Shown here: positions 24,883-57,848 of the stretch, piece by piece
Position numbering within the stretch: position 1 is the first letter of the stretch
How the letters are laid out: every line of letters begins with the position of its first letter
NCBI GenBank assembly: GCA_026388415.1
Contig: JAPLJV010000042.1
Coordinates: forward strand, 1 to 64,000
DNA length: 64,000 nt
Direction: 5' to 3'
Origin: Deltaproteobacteria bacterium
Lineage (GTDB): Bacteria; Desulfobacterota; Syntrophia; Syntrophales; JACQWR01
Position numbers and translations under genes: made by a program
Notes under the pieces: generated by a model
The model's database searches: none
What the model was told of the DNA's origin: nothing
Seen by the model: the letters and a program-made list of their open reading frames with translations, nothing else

Positions 24883-24944
24883 GCGGGAATGCGGCATGGA
24901 GGCCGTCGGGCTGACCATCAGGTAAACTCAATAGATGTGAATTA

Positions 24945-25091
24945 ACTTGCATAGAGACTTTGAATTTTACCATATCACGGCCCCCGTCGTCATTCCGGTG
25001 GAAGCCGGGATCCAGTATTATCAATAACTTCCTGGATTCCGGTTTCCACCGGAATGACATATTCGGTAGAAATTCAAGGTCTTGCATACAC
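24945..25091. repeat. palindromic intergenic element (MITE/REP-like)
   Basis: The inner arms 24989-25015 and 25032-25058 are 27 bases each and complementary except for two G-T type pairs (GTCATTCCGGTGGAAGCCGG... against its mirror). The symmetry continues outward: TTGCATAGAGACTTTGAATTTTA on the left mirrors TAGAAATTCAAGGTCTTGCA on the right, giving about 147 bases in all. It lies between the convergent nikR and argJ genes and may end transcription from both. Sequences of this kind are dispersed in many deltaproteobacterial genomes. Confidence 0.8.
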
Positions 25092-25133
25092 TTAAATATT
25101 TGGAAAACAATTGGCGGCTGTCCCCAATTATAT

Positions 25134-43716: not shown

Positions 43717-43830
43717 ATGACGAAACTCCAGATAAAATTTAAGGATGCCGTTATCAATTTAATATTTCTACTTATTTCTGAGCAAGCCCGGTTTTTACCG
43801 TTATCTCCCGCCCGTCCGTGGTCAAGGTAA
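43717..43830 (+). pseudogene. truncated FHA-domain gene
   Basis: GGAGGTGAAAC is followed by ATG at 43717 and the text MTKLQIKFKDAVIN, the normal opening strand of FHA proteins that follow PP2C genes. After about 14 residues the similarity ends and the frame runs into the reverse strand of the comEC 3' end, stopping at 43828. A deletion or rearrangement must have fused the start of the FHA gene to the comEC tail. Confidence 0.55.
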
Positions 43831-44537
43831 TGGCGCCGTGGAGGTCGGTCCGGTATATCCTGGCCGGCAGCGCCGCATAACGCTTCAGGACGTCGGGGTG
43901 GGGGAGGTTGAAGGCGTTCTCCTGGCCGCAACTGATGATCGCGATGCGGGGCCGAACCGCCTTGAGGAAAGGCACGCTGCTGGAACTAAGGCTGCCATGA
44001 TGGGGAACAAAAAGGACATCGCTTATAATGTCAGCCCCAATCGCCATGATTTTGTTCTCCATGACGTCGGAGATATCACCGGGAAAGAGGAAGCCGGTTT
44101 GCCCGAAAACCATTCTGATGACCAGCGAAGAATCGTTCGTTTCCCGAAACAGAGCCGCCTGGCTTTTCAACGACTGGGGCGATGCGCCGGCATTAAATAC
44201 GGTGACGCCGACGCCGTTGATCACTATACGCGTCAATTTTTCCTTTACGATCCGGTGCATGACGCCTTTCTCTTTGATAATCTTCAGGAAATTTTCATAA
44301 TCTTCCGTGGCCGGGATTTGGCCGTTCGTCCAGACCTCCCGGACCGGGAAATTCTTCAGAATATGCAGCAGCCCCAGCAAATGGTCGGGATGGGCGTGCG
44401 TCAAGACCAGCACGTCTAACTTGCTGATTCTTTGCCGCCATAGATAAGGGGCGAGCACAAATTTACCAATATCGAAAGTCCCCATGGCGCTTCCTCCCCC
44501 GTCAATGAGCATATTTCCCCCTGCCGGCAGGCGGATC
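43772..44537 (-). pseudogene. comEC: comEC 3' part (MBL-fold domain), separated by the element
   Basis: The C-terminal metallo-beta-lactamase-like domain of the DNA-uptake channel ComEC. HAHPDH (LVLTHAHPDHLLGLLH), GDISDV, VPHHGS and the comEC frame RLPAGGNMLIDGGGSAMGTFD are present. In the intact gene it follows directly on DVGQGSATL, now at 54383 onwards. The piece still has its own ATG (44512), overlapping the recombinase stop at 44502-44504, so the domain could be made separately by coupling to the recombinase. Confidence 0.9.
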
Positions 44538-46331
44538 AGCGTATACTTTACTTAATAAAGATTTGTCCTTTAAACTATTTATAACACTCTCCACCCTGTC
44601 AAGGTCGAACATAAAGTCCCCATGCGGGTATGGTTCCCTATCAGTAAGGGGAGCGTTCCATTTTTCTTTTGGAATTTCTTTCAGCTCATCACTATCCAGA
44701 AAATCAATCGGGCGAACATATTGGACAAAGCATTTACCACCTTGCTCGGGTGAGACGATTGTTTCCACAATCCGCTTCTTTTCTGCGAAGGGGAGGGAGT
44801 GCATAAAATCGCTGAAACCTCCCTTTGTTGAAAATTGGAGCTTCCATTTCCCTTTGGGGTCGGATTTTTTCATTGCTTCACAGAATGCCTTGTAGCGGTC
44901 TTTTTTGTTTGTGCTGTGGTCAAGCTCACGTTTTGCATCCGTCAAGTCCGCCTGAACAGTTCCCCATTCTTTTTGATCTTTTTGCCGTCCCTCTTCGTAA
45001 ATTTTCTTGATACCGCTGTTCTCCGTGGACGCAATCAGGTTGTAACCTTCAAGCAGCCTCTTATTAAGTTGCTTTGATTTTTGCTCTAAAAGGGCCACCT
45101 TCTTTTCCAATTCCTCCGTGTTCAAGTCCTTAAGCCACGCGCTGACAAAGTAGGTAGGACGTGTCAGTAAATCAATAATTTGGTTAAACAATTTGTCGTC
45201 AGTCTGATCGGCATTAACAGCCTCCAGATAACAGCTTTTGCGTCCAGCTATCTCCTTAATATCGGCGCTGACACCATGCCAACAACAGGTATAATACAGT
45301 CGAACTTTTCCCTGTTTCCCGTCATTATCCTTTTCAACCTTCACTCTTTTACGCATCCGGCTCCCGCATTCTCCACAATACAGAAAGCCATCAAATAGGA
45401 AATGATCTTCATATCCTTTGTAAACCCGCTTGGGTTTCAACTTTTGCGCTTGCATCCTGTCCTGTATTTGCTGCCACTTTTCGGGGGTTATCAATGGATC
45501 GAAAGCGAATGTAATCCACTCGCTTTCAGGTTTTGTAGTTTTTCCATCATCAAAATTCTTCTTACCAAGGGCATTCAATTTGTGCCGATAAATTTCCTTG
45601 TTGCAAACCTTCTCACCTTTATAAGCAGGATTTTTGAGCATATCTACGACTGAAATGCCGTTCCATCGTGATGATTGTATTTTCTTCTTCTTTATTGCAG
45701 AGGGTGTCGGGATACCAGCTCGTGTTAATTCGAGTGCAATTTTTTTTGTTGATAGCCGTTGATTGAGGTAAAGATCAACTACTTTGTGATAAATTTGAGC
45801 GTGTTCTTCTTCAATGATAACCTTTCCCGATTCGCTCCTTATGTATCCTAACGGTAGCTCCCCGAAATAAGCATCACCTTTTTCCCATTTTATCTTTCGC
45901 CCTGCCTGTGTCCGCTCGCGAATCATTCCCCGCTCAAGCTCGGCAAAGATAGCGATAAGACTAAACATCGCTTTGCCCATAATACCATCAGTATTGACTA
46001 TTGGGTCTTTGACGCAGATGATTTCAAGGTGGAGTTCTTCGTGCAGCTTGTGCCATAGGTTAAGGGTATCTCTGATGTTTCGGCCTAATCTGTCCAGCTT
46101 CGTAAACATGATTGTATCAAACAATCCCTTTTCGGCATCACTTATCAATGCTTGCAGTTCTGGGCGTTCTAATGAGCCGCCAGAAGCTCCCCCATCGCTA
46201 AAGAATTTCTCTAACTTCAGGCCCTCTTGTTTGCATTTTTCCTCGATAATGTCCCTCTGATCTTCCAAGCTCGTCCCGTCCTTGGCTTGTCCAACAGTCG
46301 AAACCCTTGCGTAACCAGCGACACGTTTCAT
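44502..46331 (-). CDS. large serine recombinase (integrase), frame crosses the att site
   Basis: 609 residues. Catalytic N-terminal resolvase domain (YARVST with Ser11; TKLDRLGRNIRD; ELERGMIRERT), recombinase domain about 165-270, zinc ribbon about 318-370 (YCGECGSRMRKR, YYTCCWHG), coiled coil about 395-450. This is the architecture of phiC31/A118-type integrases, which recombine attP with attB. The start at 46331 has GAGGGGGG before it. The last 11 codons after the core lie in host comEC DNA (DPPAGRGKYAH). In the excised circle the frame would run on to a TAA at 54294-54296 with a different 28-residue tail (KPLNLINISI ... SLASGW). Confidence 0.94.
   Translation of the reverse strand: MKRVAGYARVSTVGQAKDGTSLEDQRDIIEEKCKQEGLKLEKFFSDGGASGGSLERPELQALISDAEKGLFDTIMFTKLDRLGRNIRDTLNLWHKLHEELHLEIICVKDPIVNTDGIMGKAMFSLIAIFAELERGMIRERTQAGRKIKWEKGDAYFGELPLGYIRSESGKVIIEEEHAQIYHKVVDLYLNQRLSTKKIALELTRAGIPTPSAIKKKKIQSSRWNGISVVDMLKNPAYKGEKVCNKEIYRHKLNALGKKNFDDGKTTKPESEWITFAFDPLITPEKWQQIQDRMQAQKLKPKRVYKGYEDHFLFDGFLYCGECGSRMRKRVKVEKDNDGKQGKVRLYYTCCWHGVSADIKEIAGRKSCYLEAVNADQTDDKLFNQIIDLLTRPTYFVSAWLKDLNTEELEKKVALLEQKSKQLNKRLLEGYNLIASTENSGIKKIYEEGRQKDQKEWGTVQADLTDAKRELDHSTNKKDRYKAFCEAMKKSDPKGKWKLQFSTKGGFSDFMHSLPFAEKKRIVETIVSPEQGGKCFVQYVRPIDFLDSDELKEIPKEKWNAPLTDREPYPHGDFMFDLDRVESVINSLKDKSLLSKVYADPPAGRGKYAH
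44538..44559. repeat. element end with att core and arm (recombinase side)
   Basis: Core AGCGT (44538-44542) followed after a five-base spacer by ACTTTACTTAATAAA (44545-44559). The arm is the reverse complement of the arm at the other end with one mismatch in 15. Confidence 0.85.
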
Positions 46332-46353
46332 ATTTCCCCCCTCGGCCACCTAT

Positions 46354-46383
46354 TGATTATAATCATATACCGTATCTTGTCCC
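46354..46383 (-). promoter_or_regulatory. integrase promoter with palindromic operator
   Basis: GGGACA (46378-46383) and TATAAT (46356-46361) with 16-base spacing on the minus strand. The -10 box sits inside the perfect 12-base palindrome TGATTATAATCA (46354-46365), so a repressor bound there would shut the gene off. The start site falls about 18 bases before the ATG. Confidence 0.55.
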
Positions 46384-46455
46384 GTGTCTCTCTCTATTTG
46401 TTACCTTTTGCCTGCCTGTACCCGCCCAGAATAGGACTTCGTTATGGGGGGCGTC

Positions 46456-47112
46456 TCATACCCTAAGCGCTGGTTCAGCCCGCTTAATGGCGTTCTTACC
46501 TAACCAGTTGTGAAGGTTTGCCGGGGTACAGTGATACCGCTCTGCGATAAAGTTCTTCGGGACGTGATTATTGAGCAACGCAATGATCTCGGGCCTGTAG
46601 GCATCTAACTTGCTTTTCCCCGGCCCACGTGGACGGCCTAACAGCTTTCCTTTCGCCCGTGCCGCTTTCAGTCCTTCGATGGTACGGGCAGAGATCAAGT
46701 CTCGTTCGATCTGGGCCGCGATAGAGAAAACCATCGCGAGCACTTCCCCTGCGAATCGGCCATTCAATTCAAATCCATTCTTCACGTCATAAATGGAAAT
46801 TCCCTTTTCCTTCGCGGCAGCAATGCAAGACATAATGTCAACCATACTCCGGCCTATACGGGATAACTCGGGGACAATAATTTTGTCGTCTTTACCAAGC
46901 TGGTCAATGATCGCTGCGATTTTCCTGTCCTTCCATCCTATCTTTCCGCTGGCCTTTTCCTCGATAAACTCAACATGGCCGAAAGCCCTGTCGTTAGCGA
47001 ACTTGAGTATATCGGCCTTGTTTTTTTCGCAGTCCTGCTCTGTCGTGCTTACCCGGAGATAAGCGACATTCCGGGGAATTGTCTTGACCACTTCTTTTAT
47101 AATCTTTGCCAT
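46456..47112 (-). CDS. small serine recombinase (resolvase/invertase type)
   Basis: 218 residues. N-terminal resolvase domain with the nucleophile in YLRVSTTEQD (Ser22), the VPELSRIGRSMVDIM block and IAAQIERDLISARTIEGL, then a C-terminal DNA-binding part (GRPRGPGKSKLDAY, ERYHCTPANLHNWL). Members resolve dimers or invert segments. GGAGGCAGC precedes the ATG. Its presence beside the large integrase is unusual; it may maintain the circular form or flip a segment, but no inverted crossover sites were identified. Confidence 0.9.
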   Translation of the reverse strand: MAKIIKEVVKTIPRNVAYLRVSTTEQDCEKNKADILKFANDRAFGHVEFIEEKASGKIGWKDRKIAAIIDQLGKDDKIIVPELSRIGRSMVDIMSCIAAAKEKGISIYDVKNGFELNGRFAGEVLAMVFSIAAQIERDLISARTIEGLKAARAKGKLLGRPRGPGKSKLDAYRPEIIALLNNHVPKNFIAERYHCTPANLHNWLGKNAIKRAEPALRV

Positions 47113-47124
47113 GTGCTGCCTCCT

Positions 47125-47319
47125 TTATGGTTGCACTGCGATTGTCGCGTAAGGGTCTTGCAGTTCCCTGCGTGCGTATGCTTTGGCCTTTTTCAACGCC
47201 TCGCTGTAATTCGCTTGACTAAACCACTTCGTTTCGCCGTTAATCTGAAACGCCCAGCTCCCGAAGCCCTTTGGTTTCGTGCCGTGACTGAATTCATATT
47301 GAAGGGTAGTGATTATCAT
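47125..47319 (-). CDS. small unknown protein
   Basis: 64 residues (FGSWAFQINGETKWFSQANYSEALKKAKAYAR in pieces), a compact aromatic beta segment followed by a basic helix. GGAGGCC is correctly placed, and the ATG overlaps the stop of the upstream basic-protein gene by four bases. No family recognised. Confidence 0.65.
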   Translation of the reverse strand: MIITTLQYEFSHGTKPKGFGSWAFQINGETKWFSQANYSEALKKAKAYARRELQDPYATIAVQP

Positions 47320-47726
47320 TTTTTGGCCTCCTTCTCGGCAATCTTCTTGTAAATCGCAATCCGTTTGGCCGTAAAGTCGGCATCCTTTCCCTTCGCTGTG
47401 TAAATTTTGGTAAACACCGATTCGATGTTCTTGTCCGTGGCCTTGTTTTCCAGAAGTTCTTTCATAACGTTAAGCGCGGACTTGGCCTTTTCCTTCTTGG
47501 CCTCCACTTCTGGAACTGGAACGGGGACAGTCTTTTTGGCCGCTGTCTTTTTGGGTGTCGCTTTTACCTCTGCCGTCACTTCTGGAACTGCCTTTGTTTC
47601 TTCTACTGTTACCGCCGCTGCTTCTTTCTTCGCCTTCGTAGCCATTTTCACATCCTCCTTTTTGTTGGTTGTCAATTCTGTGACTGTTACCGTTGCCGCT
47701 TCTGCTGCCTTTGCCTTCTTCGCCAT
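47316..47726 (-). CDS. Lys/Ala/Val-rich basic protein
   Basis: 136 residues. The first 85 are low-complexity and rich in K, A, E, V, T and P (repeats such as KATPKKTAAKKT, VPVPVPEVEAKK), like histone H1-type or disordered DNA-binding tails. The last 50 form a folded helical segment (SALNVMKELLENKATDKNIESVF...). It may bind DNA or act as a linker protein. AAAAGGAGGC precedes the ATG. Function unknown. Confidence 0.7.
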   Translation of the reverse strand: MAKKAKAAEAATVTVTELTTNKKEDVKMATKAKKEAAAVTVEETKAVPEVTAEVKATPKKTAAKKTVPVPVPEVEAKKEKAKSALNVMKELLENKATDKNIESVFTKIYTAKGKDADFTAKRIAIYKKIAEKEAKK

Positions 47727-47875
47727 TTTGTGCCTCCTTTTAATGAAATACGTTTTTTCTTAATTTCTATATTACGGTTCCAAAAAGGAGAAGTAAAGCC
47801 TTTTCTTTAATTATTTCAGGTAGTTGACTTAAAGTTTAAATGATCGTTAATATTATATCGTTCAGTGGCCATGTC

Positions 47876-48286
47876 TTACAGTTTTCCAAGTCTTTCCATA
47901 ATTGCCCCGATGGTTTGAGGGGTGTAATAAAGATCGAGCTCGACGCCATTACTGATAAGTTCCTCGATGTTGATATAACCAAGCTCCGCGTTCTCCTTGT
48001 CCCCGTTTAGACAAGCGAACCCGAAAGCCTGTAACTGTTGGCCTTGTAGTGTGTCATCAGGACTCCCTTCGTCCTTTTCAACAATCCACCAATCAGAGCC
48101 GCCATAGAAATAATGAAGCGTTGCAAAGGCAGCCTCGCCCTGTCCATCTGTCTCATAGGTTTTCGGCATGGTGGCGATCTGGTTTTCCAATTTCTCCAGC
48201 ATGGCCCTGTAAAACTCGCCTTCTTCGCCCTTACAGTAAGATAATATCGCTGCCATCTGACTTTTCCCGATAAAGTTCTCAAGCAT
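47876..48286 (-). CDS. DUF2958 protein
   Basis: 136 residues. The YGGSDWWIVEKDEG, QAFGFACLNGDKENAELGYINIEEL and VELDLYYTP text matches DUF2958, a family common on conjugative and phage-like elements with no known function. AAAGGAGAATG precedes the ATG. Confidence 0.85.
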   Translation of the reverse strand: MLENFIGKSQMAAILSYCKGEEGEFYRAMLEKLENQIATMPKTYETDGQGEAAFATLHYFYGGSDWWIVEKDEGSPDDTLQGQQLQAFGFACLNGDKENAELGYINIEELISNGVELDLYYTPQTIGAIMERLGKL

Positions 48287-48300
48287 TGTTCATTCTCCTT

Positions 48301-48405
48301 TTACCAGCCTGCTACGTTATTGAAATATAAAGAGGGGAAAGTATCGCCCCCCATAACGAAAGCCTGTTCTCCGCCGTGTCTGACGGTAATTATGCCGTGC
48401 CTCAT
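48301..48405 (-). CDS. 34-residue protein coupled to the Cys-rich gene
   Basis: MRHGIITVRHGGEQAFVMGG... starts at an ATG that overlaps the upstream stop as ATGA, with AGGAGTTT about ten bases before. Length and context are plausible for a small phage-type protein; nothing recognised. Confidence 0.4.
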   Translation of the reverse strand: MRHGIITVRHGGEQAFVMGGDTFPSLYFNNVAGW

Positions 48406-48644
48406 GTGATAGCAAACTCCTTTTGTAATCTTCCCTTGCTTTTTTGTGGTGCGTATCCTCGGAGGTGACAGGAATAATGTTGGCAATATCCTGTCATCAT
48501 CGCTTTGCTGGACATGCAAGCTAAACAATACTTGGCGATATTTCTTTTTGGCCGGTGATTTTCCAGTAAATGACAGCTTGGATTGCAGGGTTTTGTATCG
48601 CATTGTTTACAGAACTCTTGGATTGCCTCGGTTGGTGTTTTCAT
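48402..48644 (-). CDS. small Cys-rich zinc-ribbon protein
   Basis: 80 residues with AIQEFCKQCDTKPCNPSC and YCLACMSS...GYCQHYSCHLRGY, similar in layout to small phage proteins of the CxxC...CPxxDCPLYPYR kind. Two zinc-binding clusters are likely. AAGGAAGGGG precedes the ATG. Confidence 0.6.
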   Translation of the reverse strand: MKTPTEAIQEFCKQCDTKPCNPSCHLLENHRPKRNIAKYCLACMSSKAMMTGYCQHYSCHLRGYAPQKSKGRLQKEFAIT

Positions 48645-48670
48645 AAATTATTCCCCTTCCTTGTGAAAAG

Positions 48671-48717
48671 AGAAGTGCCGGTGAGCAAATGGCACTTTTA
48701 ACTCTGCCGGCACCTCT
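48671..48717 (-). terminator. hairpin between element genes
   Basis: AGAAGTGCCGG (48671-48681) pairs with CCGGCACCTCT (48707-48717) with one G-T type pair and a 25-base loop. It lies just after the 48763-49647 gene on the minus strand. There is no clear T-run. Confidence 0.35.
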
Positions 48718-48762
48718 CGAAGCCGACCACGGGAAACGTTGGTAAACCGTGGTGACTCAGTG

Positions 48763-49647
48763 TCAATGTTGGATACCACGTGAAATCCTTGTCGCTCTTT
48801 CATTGGATTGAAGGTTGATACCTGCATTTTTTTCCTTCCACTCCTGATCCTGTGATATTTTGGTTTGTTCCTTGTTCCATGAGCGAATGCGATTATCCGC
48901 TAACACTTGCTCATGCTCGCTTTGCGGCGGGAAAACCTGATAAAATTCTGTTGGGCTCAAAGGGTCTTCAATCTTGCCGTTGATCAACATTTTTGCGCTT
49001 GTGGCCGATATCTCTGCCGCTCTCGCCCGTACCGCTTTATAAATCAGCTTCTGGTCAGCTTCTTTCGCGATCAGCGAGGGGTCTTGAGTAAAAGCATATT
49101 CCCGCCGTAGCTCTGTCAGGTGTTCGCTGTTAAGGAGAGCATCGGGACTGCTTACCAATGCTTTGATAAAGTCCAGATTACCTTTGACCATATCACCGCG
49201 TTTCTTTGGTTCGGTATTACGGATGATTTGCCGTATTTCCTGATTGCGTAACTCTGCCAGCATGGCCTTTGTCGGGTCAGAAAATGTCTCTGGTTGAGAG
49301 ACACGCAAAATTTCATTTTGAACAGCGGCAACCTCTGATTTGTATCGCTCGATATGTTTCCGCAGGAAGGACATGAGCGACCTTTTGGCGTCCAAAATAA
49401 GCTCCTTCCTTTTGGCCTCGACCACTTCCGCTTTATAGTCGCTCGTAGCTGCATTCAGTTCTTGCGCTCGCGTAACGGCTGTTGAAAAATGGTGCAGGCC
49501 AAACCTTGCCTCATCATGGAGATCGGCAAGGTGCGGACTTATCCACGGTTGATCATCTTGGATGTTCAACAATCCGTGGATTCCAAACTCGTCTTGTATC
49601 GGGTGAGCTTTCTCTTGCTTTCGCCCTGTTGGTCTTTGGTATGGCAT
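48763..49647 (-). CDS. unknown helical element protein
   Basis: 294 residues, mostly helical with coiled-coil stretches (VVEAKRKELILDAKRSLMSF, RYKSEVAAVQNEILRV). GGAGGGAATATTACC precedes the ATG. It has the look of a phage scaffold or terminase-accessory type protein, but I do not recognise a family. Confidence 0.6.
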   Translation of the reverse strand: MPYQRPTGRKQEKAHPIQDEFGIHGLLNIQDDQPWISPHLADLHDEARFGLHHFSTAVTRAQELNAATSDYKAEVVEAKRKELILDAKRSLMSFLRKHIERYKSEVAAVQNEILRVSQPETFSDPTKAMLAELRNQEIRQIIRNTEPKKRGDMVKGNLDFIKALVSSPDALLNSEHLTELRREYAFTQDPSLIAKEADQKLIYKAVRARAAEISATSAKMLINGKIEDPLSPTEFYQVFPPQSEHEQVLADNRIRSWNKEQTKISQDQEWKEKNAGINLQSNERATRISRGIQH

Positions 49648-49847
49648 GGTAATATTCCCTCCTTCATTTCTGTTTCTGCTGGTTCGTTATCAATACATGG
49701 GGCGGCTTGCTCCTGTTCATCGGCGGGGTAAGCTCCGGTAGCAATGTCAATCTGCCGGATAGCCTCGTTAATCTTTTCGATTGACACAACTGGCCTTAGT
49801 AACAGACTTTCCAGTGCAGCAACCCGTTCCCTGATTCCTGGCATCAT
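49566..49847 (-). CDS. small unknown element protein
   Basis: 93 residues (GIRERVAALESLLLRPVVSIEKINEAIRQIDIATGAY in pieces), a helical N-terminus and a polar tail. GGAGGT lies right before the double ATG. Its 3' end overlaps the next gene by 82 bases, more than usual, so its end may be less certain than its start. Confidence 0.5.
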   Translation of the reverse strand: MMPGIRERVAALESLLLRPVVSIEKINEAIRQIDIATGAYPADEQEQAAPCIDNEPAETEMKEGILPCHTKDQQGESKRKLTRYKTSLESTDC

Positions 49848-49929
49848 TTACCTCCTGTAGCTCTTTAATCCGTTCATAAAGTTGCAATGTAAACTTTTCC
49901 AATAATGCTATTCGCTCAATTGGTCTCAT
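49768..49929 (-). CDS. 53-residue coiled-coil frame
   Basis: MRPIERIALLEKFTLQLYER... starts at 49929 with GGAGG eight bases upstream, one base after the previous gene's stop. It overlaps the 49566-49847 gene by 80 bases in another frame, and its last third (QGTGCCTGK) is less convincing. Both share a helical (I/V)xLLEx pattern. Confidence 0.4.
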   Translation of the reverse strand: MRPIERIALLEKFTLQLYERIKELQEVNDARNQGTGCCTGKSVTKASCVNRKD

Positions 49930-49930
49930 T

Positions 49931-50221
49931 TTATCTGCCTCCATAATAGGTAAGATTTTCCAGTTTCTTTAGTCTGTCCTCAATGCTGCACTGTTCAAAA
50001 CAGTTCAACATTATTTGACTGCCGTAAATCATCGCCCTGCCTATCTGTACGTCAATCTCCTGCCGCCTTATCTGGTTCAGGGTAATGCTTAACAGTCGCC
50101 GGACGTCCTCTGCTGTTTTAAGCGTGATCTTATACCGCTTCTTGTCGGGGGGCCTTTCCTCGTCCCTCTTGTCTGTCGTGGCTTTCAGCGTTCCACGAAC
50201 TATTTTAATCGCTCTATTCAT
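49931..50221 (-). CDS. phage-type unknown protein
   Basis: 96 residues (YKITLKTAEDVRRLLSITLNQIRRQ, IGRAMIYGSQIMLNCFEQCSIEDRLKKLE). The pattern KITLxTxExVRRxLxxxxN...A..YxxxxLL...ExxDIExRLxxLE recurs in small phage proteins near terminase genes. Function unknown. Confidence 0.6.
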   Translation of the reverse strand: MNRAIKIVRGTLKATTDKRDEERPPDKKRYKITLKTAEDVRRLLSITLNQIRRQEIDVQIGRAMIYGSQIMLNCFEQCSIEDRLKKLENLTYYGGR

Positions 50222-50255
50222 GCCACCATTTCCTTTATTTCCCGGTGGTTTTCCC

Positions 50256-51371
50256 TCAATCGTTCAGCCTTCTTTTCAATACTTCCAGCGGTATCGGGCG
50301 GCCTTTGTTGTTGATCAAATCTGCCATGTCAAGTTTCTCTCGTTTCCATAAGTCAAATCTACCCGTCCCGAGGATTTCCTCCTGTGTCGTGGCGGGTTGA
50401 TCTTTTAGCCACGCATCATAAGCCTGTGCTGGAACAGGGCCGTTCATGCTTGCCCTCTCTCCTGCTGGGATGTTGTCCAAAGATTTGATTTGTTTTGATG
50501 TAAGGGGGGATTTTGGGCCAGCTAATTCCGCCCATGATTTTGTTACGGGGACAAGACAACACCTGCATCCCCAATGTGCCGGTATTGCCGGGTATGCTTT
50601 ATTATGACCTACTGGCTTCATGTCCATGTCAAACCGTTTTCCATCCAGAGCAGCACATTCAAGCGTGGTTCGCTTGTCTAAAGTAGCTATCCATTCAAAT
50701 CCATCAAGAACATCGGCATTGGCCTTGAAGGTTTCCATTCTGGTTGCATTGGCCACCGACATAACGCTGGTTCTTACCAATGCTGTTGCTTGCCGCTTTG
50801 TCAAACTCATTACGCCCGGGCTGGTTGCTGTTCCTCTTATCCGTCCGATCAATTGACCGACTGTTTCACCTTGCAACATCCCGATCTGGATTTTCATTGT
50901 TCCTTCCGCCATTGATGCGGATAGCCGGTTCTGTAAGTCTGTTGACTGTTTAAGCCACCAATCGCCGATAATTTTCCCGTCAATCATTGTATTCTCGGCA
51001 ATCCCTTTGACAACATCGGGGGTTAGGGTCACTTTGAATAAATCAACTCCAACGGCCTTATTGAATGACTTGACGATAGAGTCGGCCTGTGTCGTGGCCG
51101 TTTCCGTCAATCTATTATTAATGTCGTTGGTTATCTTCTGAAAAATTCTATCCAAGATTTTCTTGATTTCCTCATTTAACTGTACCAGTCTGTTTTTCTT
51201 CCAAGCGGTCATTGTCGGGCCTGACGGGTCAATTTGTGCGAGCTTCCCGGCTATCTCGTCCTCTGCTGCCTTCAACAAACCTTGAACCTTGATGTTTAGA
51301 TGGTGGGAATATTGGTCAAGGGCTGTCTGTGACTTGACCGCTGAATTCATTAGCTTCTTAGGTATTGACAT
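50256..51371 (-). CDS. phage head morphogenesis protein (MuF/SPP1 gp7 type)
   Basis: 371 residues. The C-terminal half carries the Mu-F domain: LVRTSVMSVANATRMETF, FEWIATLDKRTTLECAALDG and HWGCRCCLVPV with its Cys/His cluster. In phages this minor head protein sits by the portal. No portal, protease or capsid gene is present here, so it may act in hijacking a helper phage, or as a carrier of an effector. GAGGTGACAA precedes the ATG; it overlaps the previous gene by 14 bases. Confidence 0.85.
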   Translation of the reverse strand: MSIPKKLMNSAVKSQTALDQYSHHLNIKVQGLLKAAEDEIAGKLAQIDPSGPTMTAWKKNRLVQLNEEIKKILDRIFQKITNDINNRLTETATTQADSIVKSFNKAVGVDLFKVTLTPDVVKGIAENTMIDGKIIGDWWLKQSTDLQNRLSASMAEGTMKIQIGMLQGETVGQLIGRIRGTATSPGVMSLTKRQATALVRTSVMSVANATRMETFKANADVLDGFEWIATLDKRTTLECAALDGKRFDMDMKPVGHNKAYPAIPAHWGCRCCLVPVTKSWAELAGPKSPLTSKQIKSLDNIPAGERASMNGPVPAQAYDAWLKDQPATTQEEILGTGRFDLWKREKLDMADLINNKGRPIPLEVLKRRLND

Positions 51372-51588
51372 TTGTCACCTCTGTTCTTTCCTTAGCGGCT
51401 TTCCAGACGTGGTAAACGAGCATGATCGTCCACTTTAGAGCGCGTCGCGGCCACCTTCCTTGTGCATTCAAGTCCTCCGCTATGCGCTTAAAGGTTTTTT
51501 TCTTTGTGGTACGATAGAAAACGATTTCCTCGATAATGTCTTTTTCCACTGGACTTATTTCTCCAAAATGTCTTGGCCGTCCTCCCAT
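51358..51588 (-). CDS. small HTH protein
   Basis: 76 residues from the ATG at 51588 (TTGGAGGTCATT before it). FKRIAEDLNAQGRWPRRALKWTIMLVYHVW resembles the small winged segment found in the recombinase domain of large serine integrases (RxIAxxLNxxGxxxRxxxxWxxxxVxxxL). Possibly a recombination-directionality or regulatory protein; that is a guess. Confidence 0.5.
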   Translation of the reverse strand: MGGRPRHFGEISPVEKDIIEEIVFYRTTKKKTFKRIAEDLNAQGRWPRRALKWTIMLVYHVWKAAKERTEVTNVNT

Positions 51589-51824
51589 AATGACCTCCAA
51601 CTATGCAAAATTATTTATAATCTCCCTTTAGGAAGTTATAACAGGGATTTTTCAAATTAAAAGATAAATCTTAGGGGGAAAGCGAAATATTTTTTAGGTG
51701 GTCAGATTAGACAGGGTGCGGGATAGTATTAACGAACTTTTTCGCAGTCAATCGTCAAGATGAACACCCCTGTCTTTCGTCGGGAGGAATTTATCAGATA
51801 TATCTATGAAAAAGAGGTTTTCAT

Positions 51825-52829
51825 CTAATCTCTACTTTCTGGTGGGTGTATCACTCCTGTAAATTTTACACTTCTGGAAATTTTACATTTCTTCTTCTTC
51901 TTCTTCTCTAATTCGGCATTAAACTCGGCCTGTTTCCTTTTTTGAATTCGACCATCCGATTCAACCACTCCACATTTTTTCAATAATCTGGTATGGACAT
52001 CAGACAGTATTTGCTGAGATTCCTTTTGTGCCGCGTCCAGTACATCAATTGCGGATTGTAATGCCGTGAACAGTTTAGAATTTACATCAAACGCTTCCGG
52101 TTCATGAGATTTAATCTGCTTTTCAAAAGGTACAATATCCCGGCCTGTACTATGTCCTTCTATCTTATCTTTTAAAGCCTCCAAAGTCCTCAAGGCGTTT
52201 TCGACCATATCAAGCGTGTAGGTTGACTGTTTTATAGCTAAGCGTCCACTGTTCAACGCCTCTATGTCATCTTCTATGGCCTCAAATCCCCCTTCTTTAT
52301 ATTTCCGAGTGATTTCAGTGAGTTTTCCGTTGGTCATTTCATTCAATTGTTCGGCGTCAAATAAATACTCTCTCAACTCATCAGGAAAGCTGGGGGCTGA
52401 TATTTGATAGAGGATAGAAGGTTTGACATTCATAGCGATTTCGCGTACTCCCAAACAATGTTTGTAAACATTCATAAAATTGTTTGCAGTTTCATAACTG
52501 AAATCAAGATTATTGGTAATCCAGTCCTGAAATCCCTTTCCTTCTTGCTGGCAGATTTTCTTTGCGTGGATTAACAGTTCGCCAATTTTGAATATTTCGC
52601 TCTTGGTAATCTTAACCCGAATCTTTATCTCTTTTAGGAGTATCTCAAGCTGTGTTTCGGGACTTAATGTTGATATACCAAACATCCGCTGCCGTTCAAA
52701 AGAAACTGCTACATCGTAAAGGGGTTGATATGGTAGCAATGTCTTCGGGTCTATATCTTCTTGCTCAAAATAATAACCATCTTTACCATTACGCAATTTC
52801 TTTCTGAATTCATTTGTGCTGCTCATCAT
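51825..52829 (-). CDS. DUF3102 protein
   Basis: 334 residues. The N-terminal third has EIFKIGELLIHAKKICQQEG...FQDWITNNLDFSYETANNFMNVY, the DUF3102 core with a helix-turn-helix-like segment, seen on mobile elements. The rest is helical and ends in a basic run (KKKKKKCKISR). It may be a partition or regulatory protein. A promoter lies just upstream. Confidence 0.75.
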   Translation of the reverse strand: MMSSTNEFRKKLRNGKDGYYFEQEDIDPKTLLPYQPLYDVAVSFERQRMFGISTLSPETQLEILLKEIKIRVKITKSEIFKIGELLIHAKKICQQEGKGFQDWITNNLDFSYETANNFMNVYKHCLGVREIAMNVKPSILYQISAPSFPDELREYLFDAEQLNEMTNGKLTEITRKYKEGGFEAIEDDIEALNSGRLAIKQSTYTLDMVENALRTLEALKDKIEGHSTGRDIVPFEKQIKSHEPEAFDVNSKLFTALQSAIDVLDAAQKESQQILSDVHTRLLKKCGVVESDGRIQKRKQAEFNAELEKKKKKKCKISRSVKFTGVIHPPESRD

Positions 52830-52865
52830 CTTTCCCCCGCCCTGTAAGTCATGTTTGTCAATACC

Positions 52866-52895
52866 ATTATACTGTATGTTTCAAAATCTTGACCA
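52866..52895 (-). promoter_or_regulatory. promoter of the DUF3102 gene
   Basis: A perfect TATAAT (52866-52871) with TGGTCA (52890-52895) 18 bases upstream on the minus strand. ATAC...GTAT (52861-52877) brackets the -10 box and could be an operator. Confidence 0.5.
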
Positions 52896-53126
52896 CATTT
52901 CTGCAATATTTTTTCATGTTTCGATAAGCTGGTGATTTTTATCTATAATCAACCAGCCATGACAGCGTTTATTTTGGTAGGGGCGACTTGTTGACACTCG
53001 TTTCAAATAATCACCCCTTCGCGGCAGGTGACTGGCGGCGGCATAAGATATTACCAGCGGGGGGCGGGGTAATGGTAATCATCTGTAAGGGAAAAGTGAT
53101 TATCAAAGGAGATCAAAAGTGGAGGG

Positions 53127-53208
53127 GGTATCGCGAAGCGATACCATCTTAATTTCTGATACTGACATCAATGAAGGGCGATAGCCCTGATAGGTCAGTT
53201 CTGAAATT
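53127..53208. other. strongly structured non-coding segment in the element
   Basis: A perfect stem GGTATCGC-GAA-GCGATACC (53127-53145) is followed by a long stem 53151-53166 with 53194-53208 that encloses AGGGC-GATA-GCCCT (53175-53188). No frame is open here. It could be a small RNA, a single-strand origin or a recombination site. Confidence 0.45.
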
Positions 53209-53316
53209 ACAGATGTAAGATTGGTAGTTGCTTTGTTTGTATGTAGTCTTTAAAAGAGAAAAACTATTATAGGTCTTCAAACATTCCTTATAATATTAAC
53301 GCATTATCTCTGTTTT

Positions 53317-53408
53317 GATTACTGGTGGTATGTTAAAAAACCCAATAATATTAACCCACCACCAGTAATCAAATACAAATACCACCAGTAATCATTACTG
53401 GTGGTATT
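53317..53408. repeat. cluster of four inverted copies of a GATTACTGGTGGTAT motif
   Basis: Arms 53317-53336 and 53351-53370 pair at 18 of 20 positions around a 14-base loop. Then 53378-53392 and 53394-53408 form a perfect 31-base palindrome with a single central C. ATAATATTAAC is also repeated (53290-53300, 53345-53355). It lies eight bases after the stop of the winged-helix-like gene and about 490 bases before the DUF3102 gene. Possible iterons, parS-like site or operators. Confidence 0.85.
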
Positions 53409-53415
53409 GGGATGT

Positions 53416-54183
53416 TCAACGGGTAAGTTTCTTTATGGATTCTTCAGTTAGGAACCAAGCAAACATCAAGTGATTATCTATTACAGCACCGGTATAATAT
53501 CCAAATGCGTAAACTGGTTGATTATGATACATCCCTGTTGCTCCTATTTTCCTCAATGCTCCTAACTTTCGTGAACCGGCAAGATACTTGCGGATACCAG
53601 ATTCTGACAGTTTCATCTTTGCTGACATTTCCGAGTAAAACTTTGCATCTGCAACGAAGGCCAAGTAGCTTTTATCTCCTGTTTTCACAATGTCCTTTAG
53701 ATCACTCTGAGAAATCTGGTCGTAATTTTTAATAGCATTCAGGAAGTCCCATTGTCGAGGATACCTTTTCAGATGGCGGGTAACAATGTCATATCGCTCT
53801 TTCCAAGCGGGGGTGAGTGTCGTCCAATATGGTTTAGATTTGTTCGGGTGATCGGCTGCAAACTGATGGAATGCTTTCTTGATTTTCTTAACATCCTTTT
53901 CGTTCCCTGCTCCTTCTATCGCTGTCTCATATACTTCTTTGAGTTGGTCATAAACCATTTTCTCTTTATTGGCGTCTATTTCCAGCCGCTCCATGAGTTG
54001 TCTTTTTGTATCTTCTCTGGTGGGCTTTTGTCGTGGCGGCGGGTTATCGAGGGCTTCCCTTCGGGCCAAGTCCTCCCGAAGAGCTTTGTCCTGCTCTGGA
54101 AACGCCGCAGCGAAGCGGCTAATTACTCCGTCTGTGTCATCCTCTATTTGATCATCGTCCGGGTCTGCATCTTGTCTGTCCAT
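53416..54183 (-). CDS. unknown protein with C-terminal winged-helix-like domain, possible replication or control protein
   Basis: 255 residues: an acidic, disordered N-terminus (DRQDADPDDDQIEDD), a helical middle, and a C-terminal segment FYSEMSAKMKLSESGIRKYL ... GALRKIGATGMYHNQPVYAFGYY that reads like a helix-turn-helix plus wing. CAGAGGTGAAAA precedes the ATG. It is the first gene of the element and adjoins the repeat cluster, which makes a repeat-binding initiator or regulator attractive. No family recognised. Confidence 0.6.
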   Translation of the reverse strand: MDRQDADPDDDQIEDDTDGVISRFAAAFPEQDKALREDLARREALDNPPPRQKPTREDTKRQLMERLEIDANKEKMVYDQLKEVYETAIEGAGNEKDVKKIKKAFHQFAADHPNKSKPYWTTLTPAWKERYDIVTRHLKRYPRQWDFLNAIKNYDQISQSDLKDIVKTGDKSYLAFVADAKFYSEMSAKMKLSESGIRKYLAGSRKLGALRKIGATGMYHNQPVYAFGYYTGAVIDNHLMFAWFLTEESIKKLTR

Positions 54184-54360
54184 TTTTCACCTCTGCTTCG
54201 GTAAGTGCCGGGAAGACAGGGAAGAAGCAGCTCCCCTGTCTATACCGCCTGCGCAGGCGGCCCCGGCTGTAGGTTATCGTTATCAGTAGCTCATTACCAT
54301 CCACTTGCGAGACTTAATTTTTCAATGACATATAACTTGGTTTTTACAGGGATTGATATA

Positions 54361-54385
54361 TTTATTAAGTTAAGTGGTTTAGCGT
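54361..54385. repeat. element end with att core and arm (distal side)
   Basis: TTTATTAAGTTAAGT (54361-54375), five-base spacer, then AGCGT (54381-54385). It mirrors the other end. In the circle both arms flank the AG core as a dyad of 42 bases, the predicted attP. Confidence 0.85.
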
Positions 54386-56122
54386 GGCGCTACCCTGTCC
54401 AACATCAATGGCCGTAATTTCAAGATGTTGCCGGAAATGCTCACGGCCCGCCAGGTAAAGGGCATCACCGGTAAAGAAAATTATCAGGGCCAGCAGGGCC
54501 AATTTGAGAAAAATGGGCTGTTTAGCCGTTTTCCCACCCGCGGGATAATTTTCGCCCATTTTATTGCTGATCATAATAACAATGATGATCAGCAGCATAT
54601 AATAACAGATTATTTCCAGCATGTTAGGTGTCGAGATGCTGACGTAGGACCCGGGCAGCGAGGCGAGATAATTTATCACTGTCACCGACAGTCCGGCGGG
54701 CAGGGACGTAAGCTGGACCAGCAGGCCGGCGAGCGTGGATGACAGGGGAAGACTAATAATAACGGCCAGTCCCGTGGTGAGCGCTACCATGCCCAAAAGC
54801 GGTACGATAATCAAATTGGCCAGGAGGGTGATGGTGGAAAGGCCGTTAAAAGAGGAGGCGATGATGGGCAGTGTCCCCAGGGTGGCGCTTAGGGTGACAC
54901 ATATGAACATTAGCAGTATATGAAAAACTTTCCTGGGAATCGTGACGGTTAATGCTTCGTCTTCTGTTTGACCCGACCTGAAAAGCTTGGACAAAATGGG
55001 CGAGACAAAGATAAGGGATGCAACGGCGACGAAAGAAAGCTGAAATGACACGTCAAAAAGGGCATAGGGACTGACAAACAGGATGATCAAGGCCGCCAGT
55101 GCCAGGGTATTGAAGAGGTCTCGATCCTTGCGCAGGAGAATAGCCAGGAGGCAAACAAGCAGCATGATCGTCGCCCGAATGACGGAGATGCCCAGCCCGG
55201 CGATAAGCGAATAGATAATTACAGGCAACAGGGCTGTGCAGGTGGCAACACGAAGGGCGTTGAATCTCAAAAGCAGATAAGGCGAACTTTTCATGATAAC
55301 CAGGGTCAGGAAAATGGTAAATGAGGCCACCAGGGCCACATTGAGACCGGAAATCGCCAGGATATGCGAGGTCCCGGTCCTGTTGAAGTTTTCCCTGATC
55401 GGAGGCGGGATCGGCTTCGTCTCCCCTAAAAGCAGAGCCTGGATAATCTCTCTTTCCGGAGTTGCCGAATTGTCCACGATGACTTGGCGTAATCGGCTTC
55501 TGAGCCTTTCCAAGCCCATTTTGAAAAGGTTTCCCAAATCTGCTCTCATCAGCACCATGTCGGAGGGCTCATTGATCACTCCCCGCACTATAATGCCCTG
55601 CACCCGCAACTGTTTTTCATAGTCGAAGCTCCCGGGATTATGGAAGTTGTGAGGTTTCCTCAGGCGGCTCCGAAAGCGGATTAAATCACCATATTGCCGG
55701 GCCTGATCGCCCCGGACGGTCAGCATGACCATTCCTTCCACCGGAAGATCTTTATTTGTTCCAATAATTTGACGGACAGCGACGCTGAGCACCTGGCCAT
55801 CGGGCGTTTCTACAGGCGTTGCGGCGATGACGCCTTCTACCGTCAGCTTCTCGTTGCTTATGTAATGGACAATGTGACGGGGGCCGGGGGGGGCATAGAG
55901 ATAGAAATTGACGTCCAGGATGCCCAGGATTAAGAAAGCAGCCGAGGATACAGCCAGAATGGCGCCGGACGCTTTTTTGAGCATTGCCAGGAGCAGACCC
56001 AGTAAAGTGGCGATCAGGCAGGCCAGCAGGGGCAGGTCGGGCAGGGGGAGGAAATATCCTGTCGCAATGCCGACGCTAAGGGCGATGGTTGGATAGATGA
56101 GAGGTCTTGGCATAATTTGCAT
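54365..56122 (-). pseudogene. comEC: comEC 5' part, cut by the element
   Basis: The membrane part of the DNA-uptake channel: N-terminal OB-like DUF4131 region, then the competence domain with about ten TM helices (GETKPIPPPIRENFNRTGTSHILAISGLN in pieces is the family hallmark). It ends HLEITAIDVGQGSATL and then four element-encoded residues (NHLT) and TAA. The start is taken at ATG 56122 (MQIMPRP); an earlier ATG overlaps pilS. Without its MBL domain the protein is probably non-functional until the element leaves. Confidence 0.93.
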
Positions 56123-56180
56123 TAGATAATATTTCGTAAGTAGTATAGTATGCAAGCAGTTTTTTGTAGAGGAAAGCATT

Positions 56181-57848
56181 ATGGATAATCGTCGTTTGGA
56201 ACCGGAAAATCTGACCGCCAGAATCCACTGGCTGATGCTGGGGCGGGTGGCCATTGTCACCTTTTTGCTGGGTATTGCTGCATTGAGCGTATTCCGGGAG
56301 TTGGAACTTCTCCCGCAACGTTCGCTTACTTTCTATTACATCATAATCGTTGCGGCCTACGGGCTTTCCTTTTTCTATCTCTTGTTCCTTTCCTTTGTCA
56401 AAAGCATCAAGGTGAACATCTATATCCAGACGGCCTGCGACGTAGCGTTGATTACCTACATGGTTTATGTCACGGGCGGGACGAGCAGTATCTATTCCGT
56501 TTTCTATACCTTAGTCATAATCTATTCCGCCTTGTTCCTGGGCAGGAGCGGCAGCCTGATCGTCGCTTCGGCATGCAGTATTTTTTACGGGACCCTCCTG
56601 GATCTGGAATATTACGGGTTGCTTGACCCCCTCTATTCATCCCTGGGGGAATACCCATTTCTCGCGAGCTATGTTTTTTCCCGTATTTTTACGCATATCC
56701 TGTCCTTTTACCTGATTGCTTTTCTGGCCAGTTTCGTCGTGGAACGGGAAAAGAGGGCGCGTGTCCTACTGGCAGAAAAAGAAGACGCCTTTGAGCAGTT
56801 AGACATGTTGCACCGAAGCATCGTGGAATCGGTTAGCCTGGGCATCCTGACAATTAATCCGGCCGGCAGAATAAAATCATTCAATCGGGCAGCGCAGGAT
56901 ATAACCGATTATGACTTCAGCGAGGTTGAAGGTAAGGATGTTACCGCGATATTTCCCTTCAGCGCCAATATGCTGGCCAAGCGGGATACCTATCCCGCAC
57001 CGGCCGAGAATCGTTTCGAGGTGACCTTGCAAACCAGCAAGAATCGCACGGTAGTCCTGGGTTGTTCACTCTCCTCGTTGAAAAATAACGCCGGCGAGAA
57101 GATCGGCGACATCATGATTTTTCAGGATCTCACTTCCATCAAGAAGATTGAGGAAAGCTACGAAAAAAGCCGGCGCATGGCTCTCATCGGTGAGATGGCC
57201 TTCCGTCTGGCCCATGAAATAAGGAACCCCCTGGCCTCTATCAGCGGGTCTATCCAGATGTTGAGCCGGGATTTGCAACTCCCCGACACAGATGAAAAGC
57301 TGATGCGCATTATCTTGCGCGGAAAAGAGCAATTGGAATTCTTCATGAAAGACTTTCTGCTGTTGGCTCGGCCGACACCGGGCGCCCCTGCGCTGGTTGA
57401 CGTCAGAGAGATTATTGAAGATGTCCTGGAGGCCTTGCAATTTGTCCCCGACTGGCATGAAGGCATTGAAATCAAAAAGAATCTTGGGAGAGGCGCCTTG
57501 ATTTATGCCAATCGGACCGACATCAGGCACGTCATCTGGAATCTGCTGCTTAACGCCTTGCAGGCCATGCCCGACCATGGCATCCTGCAAATCTCGACCA
57601 GACTGGGCAACGCCGATTCCTTGCCCAATTGCCTGGAGATATCAGTATCGGACACGGGTTCCGGGATTGAGGACAATGCTCTGGGGAAGATATTTGAACC
57701 ATTTTATACGACCAGGGAGCGCGGTACCGGGCTGGGGTTGGCGATTGTGAACCGGATCGTGGAATACAACAAGGGAAAAATAAATATAGTAAGTGAAGTC
57801 GGCCGGGGAACGGAATGTGTTGTGCGGTTGCCGGCAGCGGTAACGTAG
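56181..57848 (+). CDS. pilS: PilS-type sensor histidine kinase
   Basis: 555 residues: six TM helices (about 15-185), PAS domain (about 215-325), HisKA with FRLAHEIRNPLASISGSIQML (phospho-His near 345) and HATPase with NLLLNALQAM, DTGSGIEDN and GTGLGLAIV. Pairs with the sigma-54 activator that follows after 36 bases, the PilS/PilR layout that controls type IV pilin genes. AGAGGAAAG precedes the ATG. Divergent from comEC by 58 bases. Confidence 0.9.
   Translation: MDNRRLEPENLTARIHWLMLGRVAIVTFLLGIAALSVFRELELLPQRSLTFYYIIIVAAYGLSFFYLLFLSFVKSIKVNIYIQTACDVALITYMVYVTGGTSSIYSVFYTLVIIYSALFLGRSGSLIVASACSIFYGTLLDLEYYGLLDPLYSSLGEYPFLASYVFSRIFTHILSFYLIAFLASFVVEREKRARVLLAEKEDAFEQLDMLHRSIVESVSLGILTINPAGRIKSFNRAAQDITDYDFSEVEGKDVTAIFPFSANMLAKRDTYPAPAENRFEVTLQTSKNRTVVLGCSLSSLKNNAGEKIGDIMIFQDLTSIKKIEESYEKSRRMALIGEMAFRLAHEIRNPLASISGSIQMLSRDLQLPDTDEKLMRIILRGKEQLEFFMKDFLLLARPTPGAPALVDVREIIEDVLEALQFVPDWHEGIEIKKNLGRGALIYANRTDIRHVIWNLLLNALQAMPDHGILQISTRLGNADSLPNCLEISVSDTGSGIEDNALGKIFEPFYTTRERGTGLGLAIVNRIVEYNKGKINIVSEVGRGTECVVRLPAAVT

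Follow-up and report, generated by a model that had tools for sequence, protein, structure and literature searches.

A winged-helix gene followed by an inverted-repeat array as a candidate replication module of small integrative elements

The gene for a 255-aa winged-helix protein in a small integrative element is followed, directly past its stop codon, by an array of inverted repeats, with AT-rich DNA and, further on, a strong hairpin. On balance, the comparisons of sequence below lead us to favour the view that this protein belongs to a new, narrowly distributed family of winged-helix initiators whose cognate origin would lie 3′ of the gene, the two forming the replication module of the element. 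A broader proposal, to which we give slightly less than an even chance, is that previously undescribed winged-helix initiators, nearly confined to one bacterial order, come with inverted arrays (often in + - - + order) and a 3′ hairpin, and that unrelated integrative elements swap the whole set as one module. Coordinates refer to the window, the whole 64,000-nt stretch of DNA that we analysed, unless the locus of a relative (L number) is named.

The repeat array and its host element

The array lies in an insert that interrupts comEC, a DNA-uptake gene; once the flanks are joined at the shared 5-bp core, the frame reads through without a break, EITAIDVGQGSATLIRLPAGGNMLIDGGGSAM. With a large serine recombinase at one end, a split target and a short core, the insert is a serine-integrase integrative element, and its cargo comprises large and small serine recombinases, a Mu-F-like head protein, a DUF3102-like protein and several uncharacterised proteins. 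The winged-helix gene adjoins its right end.

44538-54385: integrated element, ~9.84 kb, with 5-bp AGCGT cores at 44538-44542 and 54381-54385
54365-56260: comEC half with Competence and DUF4131 domains
43772-44512: comEC half, metallo-hydrolase part (profile search and inspection)
44502-46349, minus strand: large serine recombinase, its frame overrunning the left core by a few codons, into comEC
51825-52829, minus strand: next gene, DUF3102-like (below the Pfam cutoff), with a ParB-like gene in the same place in L032
53416-54183, minus strand: 255-aa protein with a winged-helix C-terminus, the proposed initiator

The recombinase frame crosses the left core at 44502-44538, so the protein encoded by the circular form should end in other C-terminal residues. 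Elsewhere in the element, 26-nt inverted repeats (46428-46453 and 48345-48370; 23/26 identical) surround a 1.9-kb stretch with the small serine recombinase gene (46456-47112), which looks like an invertible segment. By inspection, the element of one relative adjoins a truncated comM-like (Mg-chelatase-like) gene (L020 6422-7354), which appears to be a second competence gene used as a target, besides comEC in the window.

The initial annotation had described four copies of a motif in + - - + order beside the winged-helix gene, and GATTACTGGTGGTAT is indeed present in that arrangement at 53317-53407:

53393-53407, plus strand: copy nearest the stop codon in the sense of the gene, 1 mismatch
53379-53393, minus strand: exact copy
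53356-53370, minus strand: copy with 2 mismatches
53317-53331, plus strand: exact copy

With up to three mismatches allowed, 7 matches occur in the window where 1.04 are expected, a count reached by no shuffle, and four inverted 12-mer copies arose in 0/200 shuffles of the 190-nt stretch. Both the stem and the palindrome that had been reported exist, with adjusted dimensions: the 53317-53331 and 53356-53370 copies form a stem (53314-53336/53351-53373) with 23-nt arms, 91% complementary, around a 14-nt loop, and the other two form a 31-nt palindrome (53378-53408) that is perfect bar its unpaired centre base. Rfam gave only weak eukaryotic miRNA and snoRNA matches on the array, all under the gathering score, which we judged spurious. 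In line with the initial annotation, the motif is not scattered in the chromosome: no second cluster occurs elsewhere in the 2.79-Mb draft genome, where the other matches at up to one mismatch are two (on C18 and C60), each standing alone. On this match search, which found the cluster at 53317-53407 only, we rejected the idea that the motif acts genome-wide.

The gene named as the array’s neighbour does adjoin it; because it is encoded on the minus strand, the array begins ~8 nt past its stop codon rather than at its promoter, and the next co-directional gene (51825-52829) lies ~490 bp downstream of the array. Near the start of the winged-helix gene there is no GATTACTGGTGGTAT copy at up to three mismatches. 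The position of the array and this absence disfavour an autoregulated operator of the gene, one of the three readings first offered; the others, a replication origin and a partition site, are weighed below.

The 255-aa protein matches no family, and no known Rep family, in Pfam, PHROG or NCBIfam; Pfam gives no match to the RepA_N domain (PF06970), to which structural similarity is weak and non-significant, and primase-type pri/rep domains are absent from the scanned element proteins. Its full-length model is poor (pLDDT 64.5); the C-terminal domain modelled alone, from 11 sequences, reaches pLDDT 80.1, with helices and strands in winged-helix order, and a distant family member scores above the Pfam cutoffs for Crp-like and HTH_24 winged domains. 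This fairly confident domain model and these Pfam matches bear out the HTH/wing-like C-terminus recognised earlier. Foldseek with the protein returned nothing at E ≤ 0.001; among its weak scores, ArsR/MarR-type regulators and plasmid initiator domains (4pt7, 5kbj) fare alike, transcription regulators equalling or outranking initiator domains. The modelled fold would thus make the protein DNA-binding and does not tell which function that binding serves.

Recurrence of array and hairpin in relatives

Protein searches placed family members in ten genomes of the order, presumably Syntrophales, the window’s included (the class is represented in the searched collection by this single order, with 155 genomes), and one distant member elsewhere in the phylum (L049). 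Of 395 genomes drawn evenly from the phylum, 2 had a match, one being the window’s genome. Viral contigs, phage and plasmid records and genome contigs yielded nothing useful in protein searches, which only re-found L033, and DNA searches of plasmids and phages gave no match. The relatives number about a dozen, mostly in fragmented draft genomes.

L018 and L032 are related elements that encode homologues of the 294-aa and 96-aa proteins in conserved order; L035 also has these homologues, its winged-helix gene being cut at the contig end. Tyrosine integrases take the place of the serine recombinase in L033 and L034. L033 is a bounded 6.5-kb element with a 63-bp perfect attL/attR repeat at a tRNA-Phe gene; it retains the winged-helix gene together with 1.08 kb of noncoding DNA, and its array is not followed by a closely spaced operon. 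Homologous MORN-like repeat genes adjoin two elements (L017 2666-3355 and L032 6412-7107), as a shared target or shared cargo, and in the distant relative a large serine recombinase stands beside a gene that is cas1-like by eye (L049 9473-12280).

A search of related elements for the motif had been proposed as a check. The literal GATTACTGGTGGTAT is absent from the relatives; the arrangement is present, with a unit sequence that is different in each element. In seven mobile-element relatives and in L045, an inverted-repeat array starts within ~30 nt of the stop codon. Arrays of individual relatives are as follows.

L032: TTTCAAAAATATC, in + - - + order, directly 3′ of the stop codon
L033: unit GATCGATATATTGA, directly 3′ of the stop codon
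L020: unit TGATTACTAATATTTAT, directly 3′ of the stop codon
L018: unit AATATAGTCGA, directly 3′ of the stop codon
L017: unit TACGGAAATAATCAA, directly 3′ of the stop codon, degenerate array
L034: degenerate set, directly 3′ of the stop codon
L049 (distant protein): unit AAATTAGAAT, directly 3′ of the stop codon, palindrome and two weaker copies

These units were picked for each relative after inspection, whereas a control count of 12-mers is unit-blind: at least three inverted 12-mer copies in the 180 nt downstream were found at 0/169 control genes versus 5/7 order-level family genes (window included), the remaining two (L017 and L034) having degenerate arrays. Outside the array, a relative’s unit is rare within its own locus. 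L033 and L034, with near-identical recognition helices, have near-identical units. L045 shares the element’s backbone genes, while its winged-helix gene is unrelated (HTH_36-like, below cutoff; no detectable homology) and is followed by three copies of a perfect 16-bp palindrome; these sequences suggest a module exchange, in which winged-helix gene and array were replaced together on a common backbone.

The array could instead be the transcription terminator of the winged-helix gene, and the window’s palindrome at 53378-53408 does pass a terminator scan. We consider this very improbable: terminator-like sites were found in the array region of 0/6 scanned relatives, the stems are nearly pure A/T in several relatives, and a terminator would leave three to four matching copies of a relative-specific unit unexplained.

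Around and beyond the array the noncoding DNA is AT-rich, with an A/T fraction of 0.73-0.74 across 53200-53350; noncoding stretches of the family are AT-rich over their first ~180 nt.

53345-53358: AT-rich direct repeat, copy 1, ATAATATTAACCCA, in a flanking block conserved with L017
53290-53303: AT-rich direct repeat, copy 2, ATAATATTAACGCA
53145-53215, minus strand: long bulged hairpin of the noncoding stretch, z -4.9 and z -7.4 in two fold scorings
53127-53145, minus strand: compact hairpin GGTATCGCTTCGCGATACC, adjoining the long hairpin

The long hairpin is shaped alike in the window and L017, and at two base pairs of its inner stem both bases differ between them. When the two hairpin regions were aligned by sequence, only this five-pair inner stem was recovered. 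A strong hairpin past the array (z ≤ -5) was found in 8/9 family regions versus 3/46 control intergenic regions. One control intergenic region, at 24883-25133, has an extreme fold score of z -11.2. At 0-1 mismatch there is no DnaA box in the window’s stretch or in L033; an exact one occurs in L018 only, and none is conserved.

The winged-helix gene also has a structured leader:

54207-54267, minus strand: folded leader 5′ of the winged-helix gene, an outer stem with two hairpins, given no Rfam score in the window

At the matching position, leaders of other family genes are int-alpA-like. The int-alpA RNA (RF02996) stands above cutoff directly 5′ of the winged-helix gene in L032 (7318-7386) and L045 (10182-10250), and just under cutoff 5′ of the 396-aa gene of L037 and L049 (L037 452-525); by eye, L017 has such a leader at ~2281-2350, and those of L048 and the second L049 gene look similar. 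The int-alpA RNA occurs in 48/155 genomes of the order (35 above cutoff; loci L050-L079). The gene that usually starts within ~25 nt of it differs widely (integrase, AAA activator or unknown), a pattern that points to a leader in general use by genes of integrative elements. As a marker of arrays it was rejected: among readable int-alpA loci of the order, only the L045 element has an array.

Origin, operator or partition site

Repeated units beside a candidate initiator gene, a feature of iteron-type replicons, are present here. The unit changes with the protein, stays 3′ of its gene, survives changes of integrase and cargo and is replaced together with the gene, and we therefore regard array and protein as a self-contained DNA-protein module, although a regulator and operator pair could evolve in like manner. 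Of the three original readings, a replication origin is best supported, because the combination of array, AT-rich DNA and hairpin is found again past the winged-helix gene in elements that differ in integrase and cargo, at the position known for rep-ori units. In the mechanism that we propose, the 255-aa protein would be made once the element has excised and circularised; it would bind the inverted units just 3′ of its own gene and open the adjoining AT-rich DNA, the hairpin beyond the array may aid priming or replisome loading, and the circle would be copied and so maintained or transferred. Several findings speak against an origin: the 255-aa protein has no sequence similarity to any known initiator and no structural hit at E ≤ 0.001, no DnaA box is conserved, and the repeats are inverted, unlike classic direct iterons.

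The protein might alternatively be a regulator in a transcriptional switch, with the array (and the folded leader RNA) serving as operator for the co-directional genes past the noncoding stretch; we think this unlikely, though a serious contender. The winged-helix fold is typical of regulators, the main element genes are all co-directional and downstream of the array, and the hairpins could be leader RNA. Promoter-like sites, however, fall on the arrays neither consistently nor clearly more often than expected by chance, the next co-directional gene in L033 is 1.08 kb off, and in the window the regulator’s own start lacks copies. What favours an origin over an operator, but not decisively, is the length of the noncoding stretch, together with the AT-rich DNA, the hairpin and the lack of a closely spaced operon in L033.

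Solo chromosomal orthologues bear on the same choice and suggest that regulatory use is possible. The two (L019 8005-8925 and L031 9424-10344) lie between hydrogenase-like and formate-transporter-like genes, with no array 3′ of the gene and a terminator-like hairpin only. Their dN/dS is ~0.10, with dS saturated, and from this sequence comparison they are apparently under purifying selection, which argues that the protein can serve without an array. This apparent selection on array-less orthologues is the strongest point against a purely replicative role.

A partition site would make the array centromere-like, bound by the winged-helix protein or by the ParB-like or DUF3102 protein encoded next. 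The candidate partner is there in some loci, as a ParB-like gene beyond the noncoding DNA of L032 and, judged by eye, at the L017 contig start, and as the DUF3102-like gene in that position in the window. L033 and L034 nevertheless have the array with no recognisable ParB-like neighbour, the unit varies with the winged-helix protein, and no ParA was recognised among the examined element genes; we hold a partition site to be improbable.

If the replication-origin reading is true, the known initiators would gain a family that sequence searches miss, and the self-copying of small integrative elements in a little-studied bacterial order would be explained. A natural series of proteins, each with its own unit, would offer a direct test of the code between winged-helix recognition helix and site, and the rule that an array stands right after the stop codon could be used to detect further hidden rep-ori units.

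Comparison with known replication modules

The proposed layout has precedents in several replicons. PICIs have their origin immediately 3′ of the rep gene (PMC6092414), and as in PICIs and SaPIs the candidate origin here lies directly 3′ of the proposed initiator gene, with repeats beside an AT-rich stretch (PMC6092414). They differ in carrying primase homologue and initiator genes, where the window’s element has a short winged-helix protein with no such domain, and in having two iteron sets flanking an AT-rich region in place of one inverted array. The element encodes a Mu-F-like head protein; it has no known helper phage. In SGI1, also an integrative element, oriV is immediately downstream of rep (PMC7433901), and four repeats with AT-rich regions follow rep there and the candidate rep here (PMC7433901); the iterons of SGI1 are direct, its Rep belongs to a recognised family and a putative DnaA box is present, in contrast to the window’s inverted units and lack of a conserved DnaA box.

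Inverted repeats have a parallel in pIP501, whose oriR, according to the part of PMC4981023 that we draw on, is downstream of repR and contains an essential inverted repeat, just as the candidate origin here has inverted repeats downstream of the proposed initiator gene (PMC4981023, same part); by that partial account RepR is a 57-kDa protein and the 52-bp origin has one inverted repeat, against a four-copy array here. The Sulfolobus plasmid pRN1 has a stem-loop, conserved in structure and variable in sequence, just 3′ of its replication gene, whose product has a winged-helix domain (PMC4234260); the window shares a stem-loop of variable sequence 3′ of a gene for a winged-helix protein (PMC4234260), although the pRN1 protein is a primase-helicase and binding motifs downstream of its gene were not identified in PMC4234260.

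The PLE of Vibrio cholerae (RepA_N with iterons) uses RepA_N, with an N-terminal DNA-binding domain, whereas the window’s protein has no RepA_N match, a C-terminal winged helix and no known helper phage. Like PLE, the window’s element combines a large serine recombinase, a separate DNA-binding initiator (here proposed) and semi-palindromic repeats (PMC7145576, PMC8263062). The initiator DNA-binding domain and origin of PLE co-vary as a swappable module (PMC8263062), and the DNA-binding part and candidate origin of the family described here likewise appear to co-vary and to be swapped (PMC8263062).
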